From contig NZ_JNKW01000001.1 of NCBI RefSeq assembly GCF_000702205.1, positions 62,001-126,000 on the forward strand: a DNA stretch of 64,000 bases, given 5' to 3'. The notes beneath the pieces were generated by a model. It ran no database searches. It had not been told where the DNA came from and was given only the letters and a program-made list of their open reading frames with translations. How positions within the stretch are numbered: position 1 is the first letter of the stretch; the number at the start of each line of letters is the position of its first letter. This stretch comes from Lachnospira multipara LB2003. Its GTDB lineage: Bacteria; Bacillota; Clostridia; Lachnospirales; Lachnospiraceae. Below, one piece after another: positions 3 to 8,721 of the stretch. Both the position numbers and the translations under genes were made by a program.

Positions 3-662
3 TACCTTGTTGTTTTTGATGAAAAATCAGTTTCCTTGTCTTCTGAATTGTATGGGGATATAGATGAGTATATCAATGACAATTATGTAGAAGAAAAGAA
101 TCAAGAAGAATATCCTGATTCAAATGGAAGAAATGAAAGGGTTGTACAGAGGTCTGAATCTTTTGCAGGCGGATTAGCTTCTAATGGCGCTGCTCCAACA
201 TTTTCAAAAGCAAATAAGGCTGCACGTAAAGATGAAGAGGAAATGCTTTCTGATGTGTGCCTATCAGCACCGATATTAGAGGAAGAAAGAAGCCTAGACG
301 ATGTTGTAAATAATCTGGACAAAACCTTTATGGAACTTGTTTTTTCATTTGCTGATGCAAAAGGACTTACTGATGTTGAGGTTCAAAAGAAGGCGAATCT
401 TGATAGAAAGGCATTTTCTAAGCTTAAATGTGGAACTACAAAGAATCCTAGTAAATCCACAGCTCTTGCTTTAGCAGTAGCCCTAGAATTGAATTTAGAT
501 GATACAAAGGATCTTCTTTCAAGAGCAGGACTAGCATTGTCTCCATGCAGTAAGCAGGATGTTATAGTGCAGTACTTTATCGAGAAGAAAGCTTATGACA
601 TATATGAAATCAATCTAGCTCTTTTTGAACATGGAGAACAACTGCTTGGTACGCAAGTCTAG
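3..662 (+). CDS. Macro-domain protein, C-terminal part, with HTH-like C-terminal domain (partial, 5' end outside window)
   Basis: The reading frame is open to the left edge, so the gene begins upstream; the TTG at 36 is not a credible start. The first codons read YLVVFDEKSVSLSSEL, resembling the last strand and helix of macro domains that bind ADP-ribose or O-acetyl-ADP-ribose. A charged low-complexity linker follows (about 100-280), then an XRE-like helical domain (about 330-640; motifs KKANLDRKAFSKLK and ALAVALELNLDDTKDLL). This macro-linker-HTH layout is known from Firmicutes deacetylase-type macro proteins. The VWA protein and ADP-ribosylglycohydrolase downstream support a role in ADP-ribose removal or sensing. 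The macro assignment rests on about 30 residues; the HTH-like part is clearer. Confidence 0.7.
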   Translation, partial: YLVVFDEKSVSLSSELYGDIDEYINDNYVEEKNQEEYPDSNGRNERVVQRSESFAGGLASNGAAPTFSKANKAARKDEEEMLSDVCLSAPILEEERSLDDVVNNLDKTFMELVFSFADAKGLTDVEVQKKANLDRKAFSKLKCGTTKNPSKSTALALAVALELNLDDTKDLLSRAGLALSPCSKQDVIVQYFIEKKAYDIYEINLALFEHGEQLLGTQV

Positions 663-3796: not shown

Positions 3797-4128
3797 AAGG
3801 GCACTTAGGCTTAAGAAGCTGGGGCAACGGTTCTGCTATGCGTGTATCTTCTGTTGGATGGCTTTATGACACCATAGATCGTACAAGAGAAGTGGCAAGG
3901 ATTACGGCAGAGGTTACTCATAATCATCATGAAGGTACTGATTTTGAAGACGTAGTTCGATGTGCAGTATCTCTCGGTGGAGATTGTGATACGTTAACTT
4001 GTATCGCAGCTGGAATTGCAGAAGCGTTCTATGGCGTTCCGGATAATTATAAAGAGGAAGCGCTATCTAGGATTGAGCCGGATATGCGGCAGGTGTATGA
4101 GCGATTTTTAATGGTACGTATTTCATAA
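3797..4128 (+). pseudogene. Internally deleted and 5'-truncated copy of the ADP-ribosylglycohydrolase gene
   Basis: Nearly identical to the 3' half of the gene at 1457-2287, starting around the GSWGNGSAMRVSS segment. After THNHHEG it jumps to TDFEDVVRC. In the intact copy the two sides of this jump both carry GAAGG (1895 and 2093), so 198 bp (66 codons) was lost in frame between five-base repeats; the join is GAAGG at 3931. The N-terminal metal motif is missing, so the product cannot be an active hydrolase. Only a 96-codon frame from ATG 3838 remains. It lies directly after the AbiE pair, so a duplicated segment brackets that module. Confidence 0.87.
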
Positions 4129-4173: not shown

Positions 4174-5382
4174 ATGTCAGAGATTACATTAACAAATAGT
4201 AATGAATTGTCATTTGAAAAAAATGATATTTCTACACTGACTGAAAAATTATTACTGGATGTTAGGACGAAAGAGATTCCAAAGAATAGAAGTATTGCTA
4301 TGCCTATAGCGAAACTTTCTACTTTGGGTGCTGGAGTATCATCTCTTATTCCAGCGCTGAATACTGTTACTCAAACAACTACAATGAATGTTAGTGGTTT
4401 GTATCAGCTTGCTAATGCAAGTGTTGGAGATACTCTTAAGATTGCAAAAAATGGTAATTTTTGGGGTGCATTTAAAACCGCAGAAGGAGGTTCTAAGTTT
4501 GCACAGCTTGCTCCAGCAAAGTCAGTTTCAGTAACTAGCATTAAAACTATGAATGTAAATCCTGCTATGATTATGATGTCAGTAGCCCTTTTTTCTATAG
4601 AAAAAGAACTTGGTAATATTGCAGACATGGAAAAACAAATCTTATCATTTCTGCAAATAGAGAAGGAATCTGAAATTGAAGCAGATGTAGTAACGCTAAA
4701 TGAGATTATCCAAAAGTATAAGCATAATTGGGATAATGAACATTATATAGCAAGCAATCATAAGATGGTTCTAGACATAAAAAGAACATCAAGGAAAAAT
4801 ATGATTTCTTTTCAAAAAAGTGTTTCAGATGCTTTGAAGTCTAATAAAATAGTGGTTGCCCAAGGACAGGTAAATAATACATTGAACGAATTACAAAAAA
4901 AGTTTAAGTATTATAGGCTTTCCTTATATTCATTCTCATTAGCATCGTTGGTAGAGATTATGCTGAGTGGAAATTTTAAGGAGGAGAATATTCAGGCAGC
5001 AATCAATGAGATAAGGAAAAATTCTGATGAGTATCGCAATTGCTTTAGTGAATGTTCATTGTTCTTGGAAAAGCTTTCAAATGGTTCTATTGAATCAAAT
5101 GTGCTAAAAGGACTTGGAACGGCAAGTAATGCTATGGGTAAGCTCATTGGAAGCATTCCTAAGATAAAAAAAGGAGTAGTTGATGAATTTCTTCAAGATG
5201 CAGGTGGAAAGCTTAAATCAAATGCATCACGCATAAGCAAGGAAGTAATTGAATCATTTGCAGAGGTAAGTAATCCTAATACGGGGGTGTTTATGCAAAA
5301 GATGGAGGATATGATTCTAATTTATGATAAGACTACAGAAATATGTTTTGATAAAGATAACGTATATTTGATAGCTGGATAG
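4174..5382 (+). CDS. Unknown 402 aa helical protein
   Basis: I do not recognise this family. The start ATG follows a GAGGGATTAG ribosome binding site. Residues about 38-75 and 128-145 (SVTSIKTMNVNPAMIMMSV) are mildly hydrophobic, and 145-260 and 270-400 look like long amphipathic helices or coiled coil (ADMEKQILSFLQIEKES; KSVSDALKSNKIVVAQGQ). No signal peptide is visible. Such a mix of glycine/alanine-rich hydrophobic stretches and long helices is seen in helical pore-forming or membrane-associated proteins, but that is only a shape comparison. It stands alone between the ADP-ribosylglycohydrolase relic and non-coding debris, with base composition like its neighbours. Confidence 0.65.
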   Translation: MSEITLTNSNELSFEKNDISTLTEKLLLDVRTKEIPKNRSIAMPIAKLSTLGAGVSSLIPALNTVTQTTTMNVSGLYQLANASVGDTLKIAKNGNFWGAFKTAEGGSKFAQLAPAKSVSVTSIKTMNVNPAMIMMSVALFSIEKELGNIADMEKQILSFLQIEKESEIEADVVTLNEIIQKYKHNWDNEHYIASNHKMVLDIKRTSRKNMISFQKSVSDALKSNKIVVAQGQVNNTLNELQKKFKYYRLSLYSFSLASLVEIMLSGNFKEENIQAAINEIRKNSDEYRNCFSECSLFLEKLSNGSIESNVLKGLGTASNAMGKLIGSIPKIKKGVVDEFLQDAGGKLKSNASRISKEVIESFAEVSNPNTGVFMQKMEDMILIYDKTTEICFDKDNVYLIAG

Positions 5383-5562
5383 ATATATTGGAATCTGCGG
5401 ATTACATTATCTATACGCGTGTCACATCTTATTGATTATCTTGAACAGACAATAAGTAAAGAATTAATTGATAATTCAGAATTAGAGCATTTTATCGAAG
5501 CATATATCGATAGCTCCGATGAATTAAAAGCAATTATCAGTCTCATCAAAATGAGATTTTGA
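5383..5562 (+). other. Short open frame continuing in phase after the 402 aa gene (relic or junction)
   Basis: Directly after the TAG of the upstream gene the same frame stays open to TGA at 5560 and would encode a segment containing HLIDYLEQTISKELID and ELEHFIEAYIDSSDELK. It has protein-like amphipathic character but no start codon with an RBS (only GTG 5419). It is probably a leftover 3' end of another gene joined here by recombination. Confidence 0.35.
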
Positions 5563-5649
5563 ATTAATTGAAAAATGTTGAAATCGTGGGACTTACATAG
5601 GAAAGTCTCATTGCAGTCTCACTAAAGTCTCATGCGTAAATGAGACTTT
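5539..5649. repeat. Cluster of AGTCTCA repeats, three in 11-bp phase, plus inverted copies
   Basis: AGTCTCA occurs at 5604, 5615 and 5626, i.e. exactly one helical turn apart. The third copy forms a perfect 10-bp inverted repeat (5624-5633 with 5640-5649, loop GCGTAA). A further pair AGTCTCAT / ATGAGATT surrounds 5547-5550 at the end of the preceding open frame. This looks like a multi-site protein-binding array or iteron-like site; no function is known. Confidence 0.6.
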
Positions 5650-5751
5650 ATGAGATTTAGTTATAAAATCTATATATGTGACCTAAAACAAAACAGCAAA
5701 AATATAAGTGCCTGTCCATATTAGACATGTGCTGCAGCTTTTTTTATTGGG

Positions 5752-5928
5752 ATGACTCCCATGACAGTTTTTGCTTATACATGGAAGGAAGCAGATTGTA
5801 CTTGTGAAGTTAAATGCAGTGATAATTCAATCAATGAAGACTGTCCTGTATGTAAACAGGATCACAGTTTGTGCCAAGGTTCTGATACATTTGGAGATAT
5901 AGACTTGGATGATAAAAAAGCAAAATAA
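5752..5928 (+). pseudogene. Cysteine-rich fragment resembling a CD1107-family mobile-element protein
   Basis: A 58-codon frame without a clear RBS encodes a segment with C-T-C-x3-C, then DCPVCKQD and a further cysteine. The spacing resembles the cysteine cluster (CTC...C...CPVC...C) seen in CD1107/DUF4366-type proteins of conjugative elements. If so it is a remnant of an integrative element once inserted here. Recognition rests on a short motif only. Confidence 0.4.
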
Positions 5929-6001
5929 AAAAATATAATAAATAATTCATTTACAGACTTGACAAATTTAAAAAAAATATGATGCCGCTCTAATCCCTTT
6001 A

Positions 6002-6010
6002 TGGTATAAT
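6002..6010 (+). promoter_or_regulatory. Extended -10 promoter of the three-gene nuclease operon
   Basis: TGGTATAAT (extended -10 form, TATAAT at 6005-6010) lies 32 bp before the first start codon. No good -35 is at the normal distance; a TTGACA at 5959 is 40 bp upstream and too far. The operon RBS GGGAGG lies 7-12 bases before ATG 6042. Confidence 0.5.
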
Positions 6011-6041
6011 AAAACAGAGTATAACCAAAGGGAGGAAAGAA

Positions 6042-7160
6042 ATGAATAACAGAGCTGCAATGGATGAGATGACATTTCTTAATTTCTATAGAGAGAGTGT
6101 ATCAGGTTATTCAAAAAAGGCGAAGCGTAAAATATGTAAGACGTTAGAGAAAGATGGCAAAATAACATTTGAATCTCAAATGAGTATCCAAATTGATGGC
6201 AATAACCCTATTTATTTTGATAAGGAAGATGTTGACGCTATTATTTCGAAGACAACCATGACAGCAGAACTTATGGGCTTTTTTGAAGAGTGGGAATACA
6301 CTAAATTATATAAGTATTCAGTGCCTGTTTTTTTTGAAGCAGAAAAAGATATTGAGGAAAGTTTAAAAAATATTGGAATTAAGAAATTCGAAAAAAATAG
6401 TTTTTCTACGGATTATGTTTTAAAAACATCACTTTTAGATGCTAATCCAATGTGGTACAAATGTGATGGAAAATATTTTGTTAAGTTTGTATTGCAAAAA
6501 TCATGTTTTCAGGGTGATGATTACGAGCAAATAGATTACAGATATCCAATAGTCATTTATATCGATAAGAATGTTGGAGTGTTAGAAGTAAGATATGATG
6601 CTGTTAAATATAGTAATCAGCAAACTGAAAATAATATCTATGCGAATTTAGTAAGTACATGTTTGAAATGGCTTGTAGAGAAACTGAAATTGAAGTTATT
6701 TTTGTGTGAACATGCCAATACCATAGACGTTATTAATGATAAATCTGATTCTTCTGTAAGAATATACAGACAGATGATGGCTTTAAAATCAGGAGGTTCA
6801 GCAGAGTTAAAAGCTGCCGAGAGTAGAGATGCTGTTTTACCTTTTGTGGGTGAATTACGAGAACTTATAGAAGAAAATGAGGATTTATTTAATGGTGAAG
6901 CAAAAGTAGTAATAGAAAAATATTTGAATGATATAGAAGTGACTGCAAGTTACCCATACATTTATATCAAATGGGAAAATGCAGTAGAATCTCAGAGCTA
7001 TATTGTTAAAATAACTTTTGATTATTTGAGTCAAAAATATACATTGCTACAGCATTTAACAGGAACATGTAGTGATATAGGAATGGAGCGAATGAACAAT
7101 GCAATCAAATATCTTTGTGAAAGTGGCTCCTTTACTAAAGGAGCAGAAATTAAATATTGA
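6042..7160 (+). CDS. Unknown 372 aa protein, first gene of a nuclease operon
   Basis: Not a family I recognise. The start follows a strong AAAGGGAGGAAAGAA site. The sequence is soluble, with alternating beta/alpha character, a basic patch (KKAKRKICKTLEKDGKI) near residue 25-40, and two beta-rich stretches (about 140-200 with YRYPIVIYIDKNVGVLEVRY, and about 300-350 with YPYIYIKWENAVESQSYIVK) that could be repeats of one fold. No catalytic motif is apparent. It overlaps or abuts the winged-helix/zinc-ribbon gene, and the nuclease gene follows, so the three products probably act together; here it could be a substrate-recognition or sensor subunit. That role is inference. Confidence 0.7.
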   Translation: MNNRAAMDEMTFLNFYRESVSGYSKKAKRKICKTLEKDGKITFESQMSIQIDGNNPIYFDKEDVDAIISKTTMTAELMGFFEEWEYTKLYKYSVPVFFEAEKDIEESLKNIGIKKFEKNSFSTDYVLKTSLLDANPMWYKCDGKYFVKFVLQKSCFQGDDYEQIDYRYPIVIYIDKNVGVLEVRYDAVKYSNQQTENNIYANLVSTCLKWLVEKLKLKLFLCEHANTIDVINDKSDSSVRIYRQMMALKSGGSAELKAAESRDAVLPFVGELRELIEENEDLFNGEAKVVIEKYLNDIEVTASYPYIYIKWENAVESQSYIVKITFDYLSQKYTLLQHLTGTCSDIGMERMNNAIKYLCESGSFTKGAEIKY

Positions 7161-7458
7161 TGTCGATACTTTTATTGATTTCTTAGCTCATTATAGTTCT
7201 AAGGATTGGATTTATCCTACTGCTATACATAGAAAATTAAAATATGATATTAAAGATATCTATGATGTGTTAGAAACACTTAGAGAGGCTGGTTATATTG
7301 AGCAGTATTTGGAAATATATTGCCCAATTTGCCAGCGGTACACTGGACAATATTATAAAACCATAGGTGAAGTTCCGGAAGAAGTGTATTGTGAAAATTG
7401 CGATGAAGAGATAATAAATCCATTGGAACATGCATCTGTGATTTACAGGGTATTGTAA
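7099..7458 (+). CDS. Small winged-helix-like protein with zinc ribbon
   Basis: About 100-119 aa. The N-terminal half (DWIYPTAIHRKLKYDIKDIYDVLETLREAGYI, written here only to 7380) has the spacing of a winged helix with a recognition helix and wing. The C-terminal part has CPICQRY and CENCDEE, a four-cysteine zinc ribbon. The start is uncertain: ATG 7099 overlaps the upstream gene by 62 bp and has GGAG at 7085, whereas a strong AAAGGAG at 7137-7143 precedes an in-frame ATT at 7156 that overlaps the upstream stop. Stop is one base before the nuclease gene. The likely role is a DNA- or nucleic-acid-binding adaptor for the nuclease. Confidence 0.7.
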   Translation: MQSNIFVKVAPLLKEQKLNIDVDTFIDFLAHYSSKDWIYPTAIHRKLKYDIKDIYDVLETLREAGYIEQYLEIYCPICQRYTGQYYKTIGEVPEEVYCENCDEEIINPLEHASVIYRVL

Positions 7459-7459
7459 T

Positions 7460-8167
7460 ATGACAGATGCTCAATATAGAAACAACTTTAAAGAAGCAGA
7501 GGAAATCTTAAATGAACATGGTATTGATATTCCTAGCTTTATAGAATATCAGTGTTCTAAAAATCCAAGTTTTTTACAAATGAGCGATGATAATCATAAA
7601 TTGTTTTGCTCTTTGTATGATGAAGTTTTTACACCATCATCTACAACAAAAAGCAAGGGGAATAAGTTGGAGGACCTTACAACGGTGTTGTTTGAAAAGG
7701 CATTTCCGAATATTTTTGATGTGAGAAAAAATTGTAGAACGAGTTCAAATGAAATAGATTTGTTAATCCGTTGGAAAGATGCTGCGAGTAGAATAGGATT
7801 GATTAATGATTTTTATGGACTTGGAAACACTTTTTTATGTGAGTGTAAAAACTATGAAGGCAAAGTTAGTGTTACATATATTGGAAAGTTTTTTTCACTA
7901 ATGAGTTATACGAATACAAGGCTTGGAGTGTTAGTAGCGTGGGATGGAGTTACTGGAAAAGGATGGGCTGATGGTTTAGGGTTAATAAAAAAAATAGCAC
8001 TTGCAGATAAAAGGTACATCATCGTTATAACGAAAGACGATCTTTTTGAAGTATATCAAAAGAAGAAGACGGTATTTGAACTATTAAGAGATAAGTATCA
8101 CTCATTGAAAAATGATATTATGTACGACAAGTATATATCTAAACATGAAGCAGAGAAAAAATTATAA
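7460..8167 (+). CDS. Restriction endonuclease-like protein (PD-(D/E)XK, Mrr-type fold)
   Basis: 235 aa. The central part has the core of a PD-(D/E)XK nuclease: a glutamate in GNKLEDLTTVLFEKAF, the metal-binding aspartate in SSNEIDLLIRW, and ECKNYEGKVSV (E-x-K), followed by KFFSLMSYTNTRLGVLV, the helix and strand that close the core. This pattern matches Mrr-cat/restriction-endonuclease-like proteins that cut DNA. N-terminal about 70 residues are helical and unassigned. It starts two bases after the upstream stop. With no methyltransferase next to it, it is unlikely to be a classical restriction enzyme; a phage-defence or DNA-repair nuclease dependent on its two partners is more likely. Confidence 0.82.
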   Translation: MTDAQYRNNFKEAEEILNEHGIDIPSFIEYQCSKNPSFLQMSDDNHKLFCSLYDEVFTPSSTTKSKGNKLEDLTTVLFEKAFPNIFDVRKNCRTSSNEIDLLIRWKDAASRIGLINDFYGLGNTFLCECKNYEGKVSVTYIGKFFSLMSYTNTRLGVLVAWDGVTGKGWADGLGLIKKIALADKRYIIVITKDDLFEVYQKKKTVFELLRDKYHSLKNDIMYDKYISKHEAEKKL

Positions 8168-8241
8168 TTTGCAAAAGCATAATTAGAAGCATTTACATTT
8201 GTGAGTGCTTTTTTGTGCAAAAAATCAGGTAAATATTTTCG

Positions 8242-8268
8242 GGACAGTCCATATGGGCTGTCCTTTTT
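8242..8268 (+). terminator. Terminator of the nuclease operon
   Basis: GGACAG (8242-8247) pairs with CTGTCC (8258-8263); the inner CCATATGG is also self-complementary, and TTTTT follows. It closes the operon 75 bp after the nuclease stop. Confidence 0.8.
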
Positions 8269-8287
8269 CATTATGGAGGAAAAATAT

Positions 8288-8434
8288 ATGGCAAGAAAAT
8301 CAAGATATATTGGCTACGTGGAAGGCTTAGTGCAACTTAAGGCAAAGCATGAGAAGCGTAGAAGATTCGAAAAGGAAAAGTCACTTACTAGGAAGCTTAA
8401 TCAATATAAAAATGAGGTGAGGGAGAATAGGTAA
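8288..8434 (+). CDS. Small basic protein of unknown function (48 aa)
   Basis: The ATG at 8288 follows TGGAGGAAAA directly. The peptide starts MARKSRYIGYVEG and is rich in lysine and arginine (KAKHEKRRRFEKEKSLTRKL), one or two helices, no cysteine. An earlier in-frame start at 8201 would run through the terminator hairpin and is unlikely. It is followed after 11 bp by the dsRNA-binding protein; together they may be an RNA-binding pair, which is speculation. Confidence 0.6.
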   Translation: MARKSRYIGYVEGLVQLKAKHEKRRRFEKEKSLTRKLNQYKNEVRENR

Positions 8435-8445
8435 AATCTCATAAT

Positions 8446-8721
8446 ATGCTTTTTACTGTCAGAGATGAGATTGATGAGCCAACAGTTGAGATGGCAATTA
8501 ATCAGCTGGAGATTCTTGCAAGACGTGATTATATAGCTATGTCTGAATATGAATATCGCGAAGAACATGATGCTGATGGAAATCCTATCTGGTTTGTTTC
8601 ATGTAAAGTAGAAGGTTTTGATTTTATCGCGTCGATTAACTCATCTTCAAAGAAGAAAGCGAAGAAGCAAGCAGCGCTTGAAATGCTTAATTACGTACTA
8701 GAGAACTATGAGGAGGGTTAA
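8446..8721 (+). CDS. Double-stranded RNA-binding-motif protein
   Basis: 91 aa. Residues about 34-90 match the dsRBM: EYREEHDADGNPIWFVSCKV (beta 1-2), GFDFIASINSSSKKKAKKQA (beta 3 and the KKxAK helix N-terminus) and AALEMLNYVLE (helix 2). This domain normally forms the C-terminus of RNase III; here it stands without the nuclease domain. No RBS lies at a useful distance before ATG 8446 and an in-frame stop is at 8428, so the gene may be a 5'-truncated remnant of a longer protein or be translated by coupling with the small basic gene. Its stop is two bases before the exporter gene. Confidence 0.72.
   Translation: MLFTVRDEIDEPTVEMAINQLEILARRDYIAMSEYEYREEHDADGNPIWFVSCKVEGFDFIASINSSSKKKAKKQAALEMLNYVLENYEEG

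Follow-up and report, generated by a model that had tools for sequence, protein, structure and literature searches.

The 64,000-nucleotide stretch of Lachnospira multipara LB2003 studied here (contig NZ_JNKW01000001.1, positions 62,001 to 126,000; hereafter the window, in whose own numbering all coordinates are given) contains a compact cassette of three genes, A, B and C, that recurs as a conserved and mobile unit in Clostridia, Bacilli and phages and whose last product carries the motifs of a PD-(D/E)XK nuclease. We put the chances at about even that this cassette is a mobile anti-phage exclusion system resembling RexAB, with a soluble DNA nuclease as its effector; it probably protects its host cell against other viruses. 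What is new here is the predicted fold of protein A, which resembles those of RdgC, CENP-L and CENP-N and is invisible from sequence alone. An original prediction, made from the DNA letters, had proposed an unrecognised three-gene operon as a candidate new defence system. The conservation of this unit, together with its mobility and its place in a phage accessory slot, gives that proposal partial support, with defence itself being the interpretation put on this evidence.

Gene organization and conservation

All three open reading frames (ORFs) lie on the + strand and encode protein A of 372 amino acids (aa; 6042-7160), protein B of 119 aa (7099-7458) and protein C of 235 aa (7460-8167). A and B overlap by 62 bp and B and C are separated by 1 bp, which is the tight packing first described, and the unit indeed contains neither a methyltransferase nor a helicase. 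It is also unrecognised, as had been claimed, in that no described system matched it in PADLOC 2023, NCBIfam or Pfam. In PADLOC 2023, A matched no family at E ≤ 1, B reached E 0.0054 at best and C reached E 0.012 with a partial match; catalogued defence systems, considered as identities for the triplet, were set aside for want of PADLOC support. The triplet is named in no entry of PADLOC (2023), NCBIfam, Pfam or PHROGs, and no paper describing it was found among the titles and abstract beginnings that searches of open-licence PMC literature listed.

Searched at the protein level, five of 250 genomes from the same family contain A, one of them the window's own. B and C follow A in the other four copies (L003-L006), one of which, L005, has an A gene interrupted by a stop codon. 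A profile of C recovered 50 loci in 84,980 species genomes and 18 in viral contigs, in scans seeded with short conserved patterns, which overlook remote copies; scans of the viral contigs with single window proteins gave no match, and the alignment of C was needed. A, B and C stand on one strand and in the same order at 63 of 70 nuclease loci, and thus are conserved together in other genomes. This total takes in the window, L007 and L009-L076, and leaves out L008 (a fused version) and L001-L006 (duplicates of the window or of other counted loci). L007 and L069 are one phage and several Staphylococcus aureus rows are near-copies, and clustering at about 93% identity leaves 53 of 71 C proteins and 46 of 63 A proteins. 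In 11 or more of the 63, the A or C gene is incomplete, split or truncated by a contig end (L012, L028, L031, L032, L039, L044, L054, L058, L060, L064, L074). Seven loci do not have A and B together: four run into a contig end (L020, L036, L041, L057), C is incomplete or split in L047 and L056, and L075 has the most divergent C. From the interrupted or split A or C frames in L005/L044, L031, L032, L047, L058 and L060, the cassette seems to decay often.

The named hosts include Lachnospiraceae, Lactobacillus colini, Lactococcus plantarum, Lysinibacillus, Desulfosporosinus and Peptacetobacter. Occurrence is sparse by profile as well: the A profile matched 1 of 398 genomes of the phylum (the window's own), and the C profile 5 of 295 genomes of the order, including the window's own and two weak matches. 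When 36 A proteins are placed on a quick tree, the taxonomic orders, labelled for 25 rows, come out mixed, with 11 changes against a minimum of 5, a value as low in 121 of 200 shuffles, and only Caryophanales (2 rows) group together. This mixing is in keeping with transfer, and some bins are possibly mislabelled. Compared with L009, the nearest relative, the ratio of nonsynonymous to synonymous substitution rates (dN/dS) is about 0.147 for A, 0.139 for B and 0.144 for C; like the recurrence of the triplet, this marks the genes as more than a chance arrangement. The dS values themselves are uneven along the operon (A 0.31, B 0.47, C 0.78), hinting at recombination inside it.

Predicted fold of protein A

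Protein A has no match above cut-off in Pfam and none that is convincing in NCBIfam, PADLOC or PHROGs. A Ku beta-barrel was rejected as an assignment: the match is sub-threshold (E 0.026), occurs in a single one of the 36 homologues and has no counterpart among the listed fold rows. The structure prediction that had been proposed for this protein was run with AlphaFold2 and 36 homologues (mean pLDDT 82, pTM 0.80), and the model was compared by VIA-align with the 1000 best Foldseek chains. The top 16 rows are all RdgC or CENP-L/CENP-N/Iml3/Chl4 chains, with Z from 11.2 to 5.8, and the first row outside this superfamily has Z 5.2. E. coli RdgC is the best match (2owl, Z 11.2, 213 residues, rmsd 5.2), and a second RdgC structure, 2owy, gives Z 10.5. 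These are accompanied by CENP-L (7xhn_L, Z 8.1, 200 residues, rmsd 4.2), CENP-N (7bxt_M, Z 8.1, rmsd 3.9, 175 of 198 residues aligned, model residues 8..362), Iml3 (4je3_A, Z 7.8) and Chl4 (6qld_N, Z 6.2), names that were read from the chain letter where the entry title names the complex only. Because Z values of 7-8 are common for models without a clear match, these latter rows are weak taken alone and we place the main weight on RdgC and on the uniformity of the top list. RexA (8TWQ) is not among the rows listed, which excludes nothing. On the predicted model, then, A has an RdgC-type fold, though a plain Foldseek search against the PDB is not significant.

The RdgC/CENP-L-like region of A covers about residues 88-369 (6303-7148, + strand; model residues 84..368 with 2owl and 88..369 with 2owy). 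It is preceded by a part predicted to be helical, residues 9-87 (6066-6302, + strand), which lies outside the RdgC match and in this respect sets A apart from RdgC. The CENP-N rows, in contrast, start at model residue 8 or 9, in the N-terminal helices, and reach nearly to the end of A. The N-terminal domain of CENP-N has about 77 residues, and since the alignment of 7bxt_M starts at model residue 8 and takes in 175 of 198 residues, we infer that part of this domain must align with the N-terminal helices of A. CENP-N and CENP-L are eukaryotic and have another function. There is a small chance, to be treated as speculation, that the A family is CENP-N-like as a whole (helical N-terminus plus CENP-N/L/RdgC fold), serves as a DNA-structure sensor for a nuclease, and belongs with RexA and RdgC to a prokaryotic pool behind kinetochore CENP-L and CENP-N.

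Against viral models, Foldseek gave only four matches to A at E ≤ 0.001. Two are RdgC-type, a Klebsiella phage RdgC (2.2e-5) and a 'recombination-associated protein' (6.8e-4); the others are a Providencia phage 'exonuclease' and one unnamed protein.

Nuclease C and protein B

C matches PF04471 (Mrr_cat) with E 2.4e-6 and 28.1 bits against a cut-off of 21. Its catalytic motifs E71, N97-E98-x-D100 and E128-C-K130 (7670-7849, + strand) are invariant in 36 of 36 aligned homologues, an alignment made of unbroken C proteins with broken copies left out, and the Mrr-type nuclease that had been read from the sequence thus stands. The C model matches N.BspD6I (Z 11.8), R.BspD6I2 (Z 11.4) and FokI (Z 10.2), and AspBHI, MspJI, Can2 and NucC are also among its fold matches. 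C is therefore a probable PD-(D/E)XK nuclease, by its motifs in sequence and by the fold of its predicted model; its relatives in PHROGs, phrog_18586 and phrog_6350, have no function assigned.

C shares the Mrr_cat domain with Mrr and Type IV restriction enzymes, and a fold close to those of BspD6I, FokI, AspBHI, Can2 and NucC with PD-(D/E)XK defence nucleases more widely. It differs in that its chain has no Mrr N-terminal winged-helix domain (Pfam, E ≤ 1): here the winged-helix-like protein, B, is separate, and the possible DNA-binding parts are two proteins, A and B. Several PD-(D/E)XK enzymes get their specificity from partners or from DNA-binding parts. These features bear on an alternative in which the cassette is a modification-dependent, Type IV-like restriction system, with A and/or B reading modified phage bases and C cutting, a scheme that needs no methyltransferase. 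The Mrr-type nuclease, the presence of the modification-dependent enzymes AspBHI and MspJI among the fold matches and the lack of a methyltransferase in the unit all fit; on the other side, Pfam finds no modified-base reader domain in A or B, and the C model scores better with BspD6I- and FokI-type folds. We regard this alternative as unlikely overall, and it differs from a Rex-like exclusion system mainly in what A senses.

B had been called winged-helix/zinc-ribbon-like. The matches to a winged helix-turn-helix and to a zinc ribbon in Pfam remain sub-threshold, and nothing convincing was found in NCBIfam, PADLOC or PHROGs; what lends the description substance is a set of four cysteines, C75, C78, C98 and C101 (7321-7401, + strand), that could form a C4 zinc ribbon and are all kept in 28 of 31 homologues. 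The remaining three, from an S. aureus phage, Lactococcus and one viral version, have lost most or all of them, and the zinc ribbon is therefore not essential.

The products of all three genes look soluble. The highest 19-residue hydropathy of each protein has a median of 0.87 for A, 0.85 for B and 1.14 for C, with highest single values of 1.44, 1.82 and 1.82, respectively; a membrane effector such as RexB is thus not seen.

A mobile cassette in chromosomes and phages

The window shares positions 5935-8213 (+ strand) at 87% with locus L009 of Lachnoanaerobaculum sp. OBRC5-5 (blastn). Outside these limits there is no match between the window and the 12.7-kb L009 locus, and the identical limits were obtained when window positions 5900-8300 were searched against the collected loci. 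Since the flanks differ between the two, the shared DNA is a discrete cassette that ends at its own hairpin. No full copy was found in 21 other genomes of the window's genus, several of them incomplete, and two of these have no more than some 53 matching bases; A had no match in plasmids, and an empty insertion site was not found. In one genome (G925) the downstream genes for a double-stranded-RNA-binding-domain (dsRBD) protein and an SMR protein are kept at 90-91%, and the DNA upstream of the dsRBD gene is unlike the window.

Relatives of C occur in seven S. aureus phage records, and in all three of the seven that were examined, Henu2 and SAP71 (both Phietavirus) and SauPS-28 (Peeveelvirus), the triplet lies between endolysin and integrase. 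In such phages this stretch is typically where accessory genes are carried, and no other part of the phietaviruses studied is as diversified (PMC12323379). The three genes thus move as one mobile cassette, among other places in a prophage accessory slot. Other phage contexts were judged from 10 proteins chosen among 134 listed neighbours, 3 of the 10 being uninformative on position; among the 10 are integrases (L035, L061, L062), an endolysin-like protein (L060), a terminase (L073), a tail-like gene product (L037) and an FtsK-like one (L034).

In Coprococcus phages a two-gene version lies between terminase and portal, with B and C as one protein whose profile matches are 99.0% to C (E 6.9e-18) and 97.3% to B (E 2.8e-11). 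Between A and the A-sized protein of this version, comparison gave only a weak, collinear alignment (E 0.033, probability 1.5%). L134 and L135 have the same gene order as the Coprococcus phages. At two more distant loci, L138 and L137, C (disrupted in L137) is preceded by genes of the sizes of A and B, which were taken for A and B by position and by eye. In L134, L135 and L008 the B-C fusion goes with an A-sized protein of 409-410 aa just after a large terminase-sized gene, and in L008, filed under Ca. Heliusvirales, the two-gene version sits inside the structural module.

Two further explanations turn on these settings. The cassette might be a recombination or DNA-repair module of mobile elements, in which an RdgC-like binder and a nuclease process ends for the element's replication or integration. 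The predicted fold of A would suit such a module, relatives of RdgC are frequent among phages (430 of 50,697 records), and some copies lie near an integrase or terminase. We nevertheless find it improbable, as the triplet occupies an accessory slot beyond the endolysin in the S. aureus phages examined, and in the chromosome it forms a discrete cassette that has a terminator-like hairpin to itself. Alternatively, C could be a DNA-damaging toxin restrained by A and B, in a toxin-antitoxin-like addiction unit whose main role is to stabilise its element. A compact mobile operon with an A/B overlap and a B-C fusion, present in phages and beside an FtsK-like gene, would be in line with this. Toxin-antitoxin systems, however, do not usually comprise three genes with a large RdgC-like partner, and the unit is rare and patchy (5 of 250 family genomes), leaving this explanation a slim chance as the main role; toxin-antitoxin and defence roles are compatible and not exclusive.

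Likeness to RexAB and a proposed mechanism

We return to the reading of the cassette as a RexAB-like exclusion system. The crystal structure of RexA is reported to match RdgC (DALI Z 4.4) and to have domain homology with Iml3/Chl4, and RexA to bind DNA (PMC11077077); Chl4/Iml3 in turn resembles RdgC and TBP (PMC4080450). The RdgC/Iml3/Chl4-type fold reported for RexA may be shared by A, for which an RdgC-like fold is predicted. RexAB exclusion occurs in lambda, in P. putida prophage P1 and in the phages Sbash, CarolAnn and Butters. RexA is held to sense by binding DNA and to set off the membrane effector RexB, and of the only five Rex-like systems described by January 2026, four have a RexB-type membrane effector (PMC12894663). 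The proposed logic there, a soluble DNA-binding sensor with a separate effector, could apply to the triplet as well, and both are prophage-borne. They are not placed alike, since lambda rexAB adjoins cI whereas the triplet of the S. aureus phages lies between endolysin and integrase. Tha, another prophage defence system of S. aureus, differs in using HEPN (PMC11087260).

In the mechanism that we propose, A, as a protein of the RdgC/RexA/CENP-L-N fold, would clamp DNA, probably as a dimer, and detect some feature of phage DNA that is entering the cell or being replicated. B would be a winged-helix and zinc-ribbon adaptor that couples A to C, produced in tight proportion to A, with which its gene overlaps, and to C, to which it is fused in some phages. 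C would stay idle until A engages its target and would then cut DNA, either the phage's or all cellular DNA. The A/B overlap and the B-C fusion suggest fixed proportions and a complex, and mobility together with the prophage accessory slot supports defence; DNA sensing, complex formation, control of C and defence are all steps that we infer.

Several observations weigh against this interpretation. The partner of RexA is the membrane protein RexB, whereas here the partners are a nuclease and a winged-helix/zinc-ribbon protein; with the RexB feature absent, the triplet is not to be called RexAB, though its mode of action may be Rex-like. In RexA mutants DNA binding and exclusion are uncorrelated (PMC11077077), so that a clamp model may not explain Rex either. 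The Foldseek search of the A model against the PDB gave nothing at E ≤ 0.001, the best match (4.6e-3) being unrelated, and the four viral matches reach TM-scores of no more than 0.29-0.40. A has no detectable sequence similarity to RexA and no Pfam or profile similarity to RdgC: hhalign found no link to either (probability 0.1% for RdgC), and PF04381 matched none of 36 A proteins at E ≤ 0.1. The hhalign result says little, because the control comparison of RdgC with RexA also finds no link. A is acidic, with an isoelectric point of 5.2 in the window and a family median of 5.0 (n=33), compared with 8.6 for lambda RexA, 5.3 for E. coli RdgC and 6.3 for a Salmonella-phage relative of RexA. Finally, the neighbours of chromosomal copies include, among the first 25 families of each list, housekeeping-looking enzymes as well as defence genes.

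How RexA senses infection has been described as unsolved 70 years after Benzer's observation (PMC12894663). RexB is a membrane channel and awkward to assay; if the triplet does pair a Rex-like sensor with a soluble nuclease, sensing would become testable in vitro, and the RdgC/RexA/CENP fold would be a module for sensing DNA to which effectors of different kinds can be attached. It would also give a candidate function to 'hypothetical' genes of S. aureus phages and to the relatives of these genes in Lachnospiraceae.

Transcription signals

A Shine-Dalgarno-like GGGAGG (6030-6035, + strand) is seen in the sequence upstream of the start codon of A. The single promoter originally assigned to the operon is weak: the extended -10 promoter-like site TGGTATAAT (6002-6010, + strand) is an exact match, yet such matches are no commoner in the window than chance (7 observed vs 8.5 expected), and a promoter scan gave 13 promoter-like sites, fewer than the 16.2 in shuffles. 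The single terminator fares better. A terminator-like hairpin with a U-run lies at the cassette end (8177-8218, + strand; RNA fold -18 kcal/mol, z -4.11); it is missing from the list of the terminator scan, which instead gave a stronger one at 8241-8264 (-17.5 kcal/mol, z -6.9), just outside the cassette. Rfam has nothing at gathering threshold within 5300-8500.

Neighbouring genes

AbiEi and AbiEii are present near the cassette, as first reported. The ADP-ribose hydrolases noted beside them amount to one full ADP-ribosylglycohydrolase and a 96-aa piece of another. The vicinity of AbiE had been offered as an argument for defence, and this argument is weak: the cassette is discrete, has other flanks elsewhere and keeps mixed neighbours. 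For the latter we took the two nearest ORFs of at least 120 aa on each side at 39 chromosomal loci, after 11 loci had been dropped as near-copies or broken, and reduced the resulting 142 proteins by similarity to 131. These match 119 PADLOC families (E ≤ 1e-10); among the matches listed, the first 25 of 119, are a Type IV enzyme, a Type II methyltransferase and restriction enzyme, RT_UG31, Olokun and Tmn. A comparison set of 99 proteins, from 13 arbitrarily placed stretches of 4 genomes, matches 31 families. We claim no defence enrichment from these numbers, because families were counted, the sets are unequal in size and organisms, and some defence models match ordinary enzymes.

Within the window, the full-length ADP-ribosylglycohydrolase is encoded at 1457-2287, directly downstream of a protein with a sub-threshold VWA match (756-1457), with which it may form a two-gene unit. 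The 96-aa ORF after AbiE (3838-4128) matches only the last part of the ADP-ribosylglycohydrolase family and is a possible remnant of a duplication or insertion. Between AbiE and the cassette lies a 402-aa protein (4174-5382) with no meaningful Pfam, NCBIfam or PADLOC score. Just downstream of the cassette, 8446-8721 encodes a lone 91-aa protein with a double-stranded-RNA-binding motif, and a relative of its gene at 70% DNA identity is found elsewhere in the same genome.

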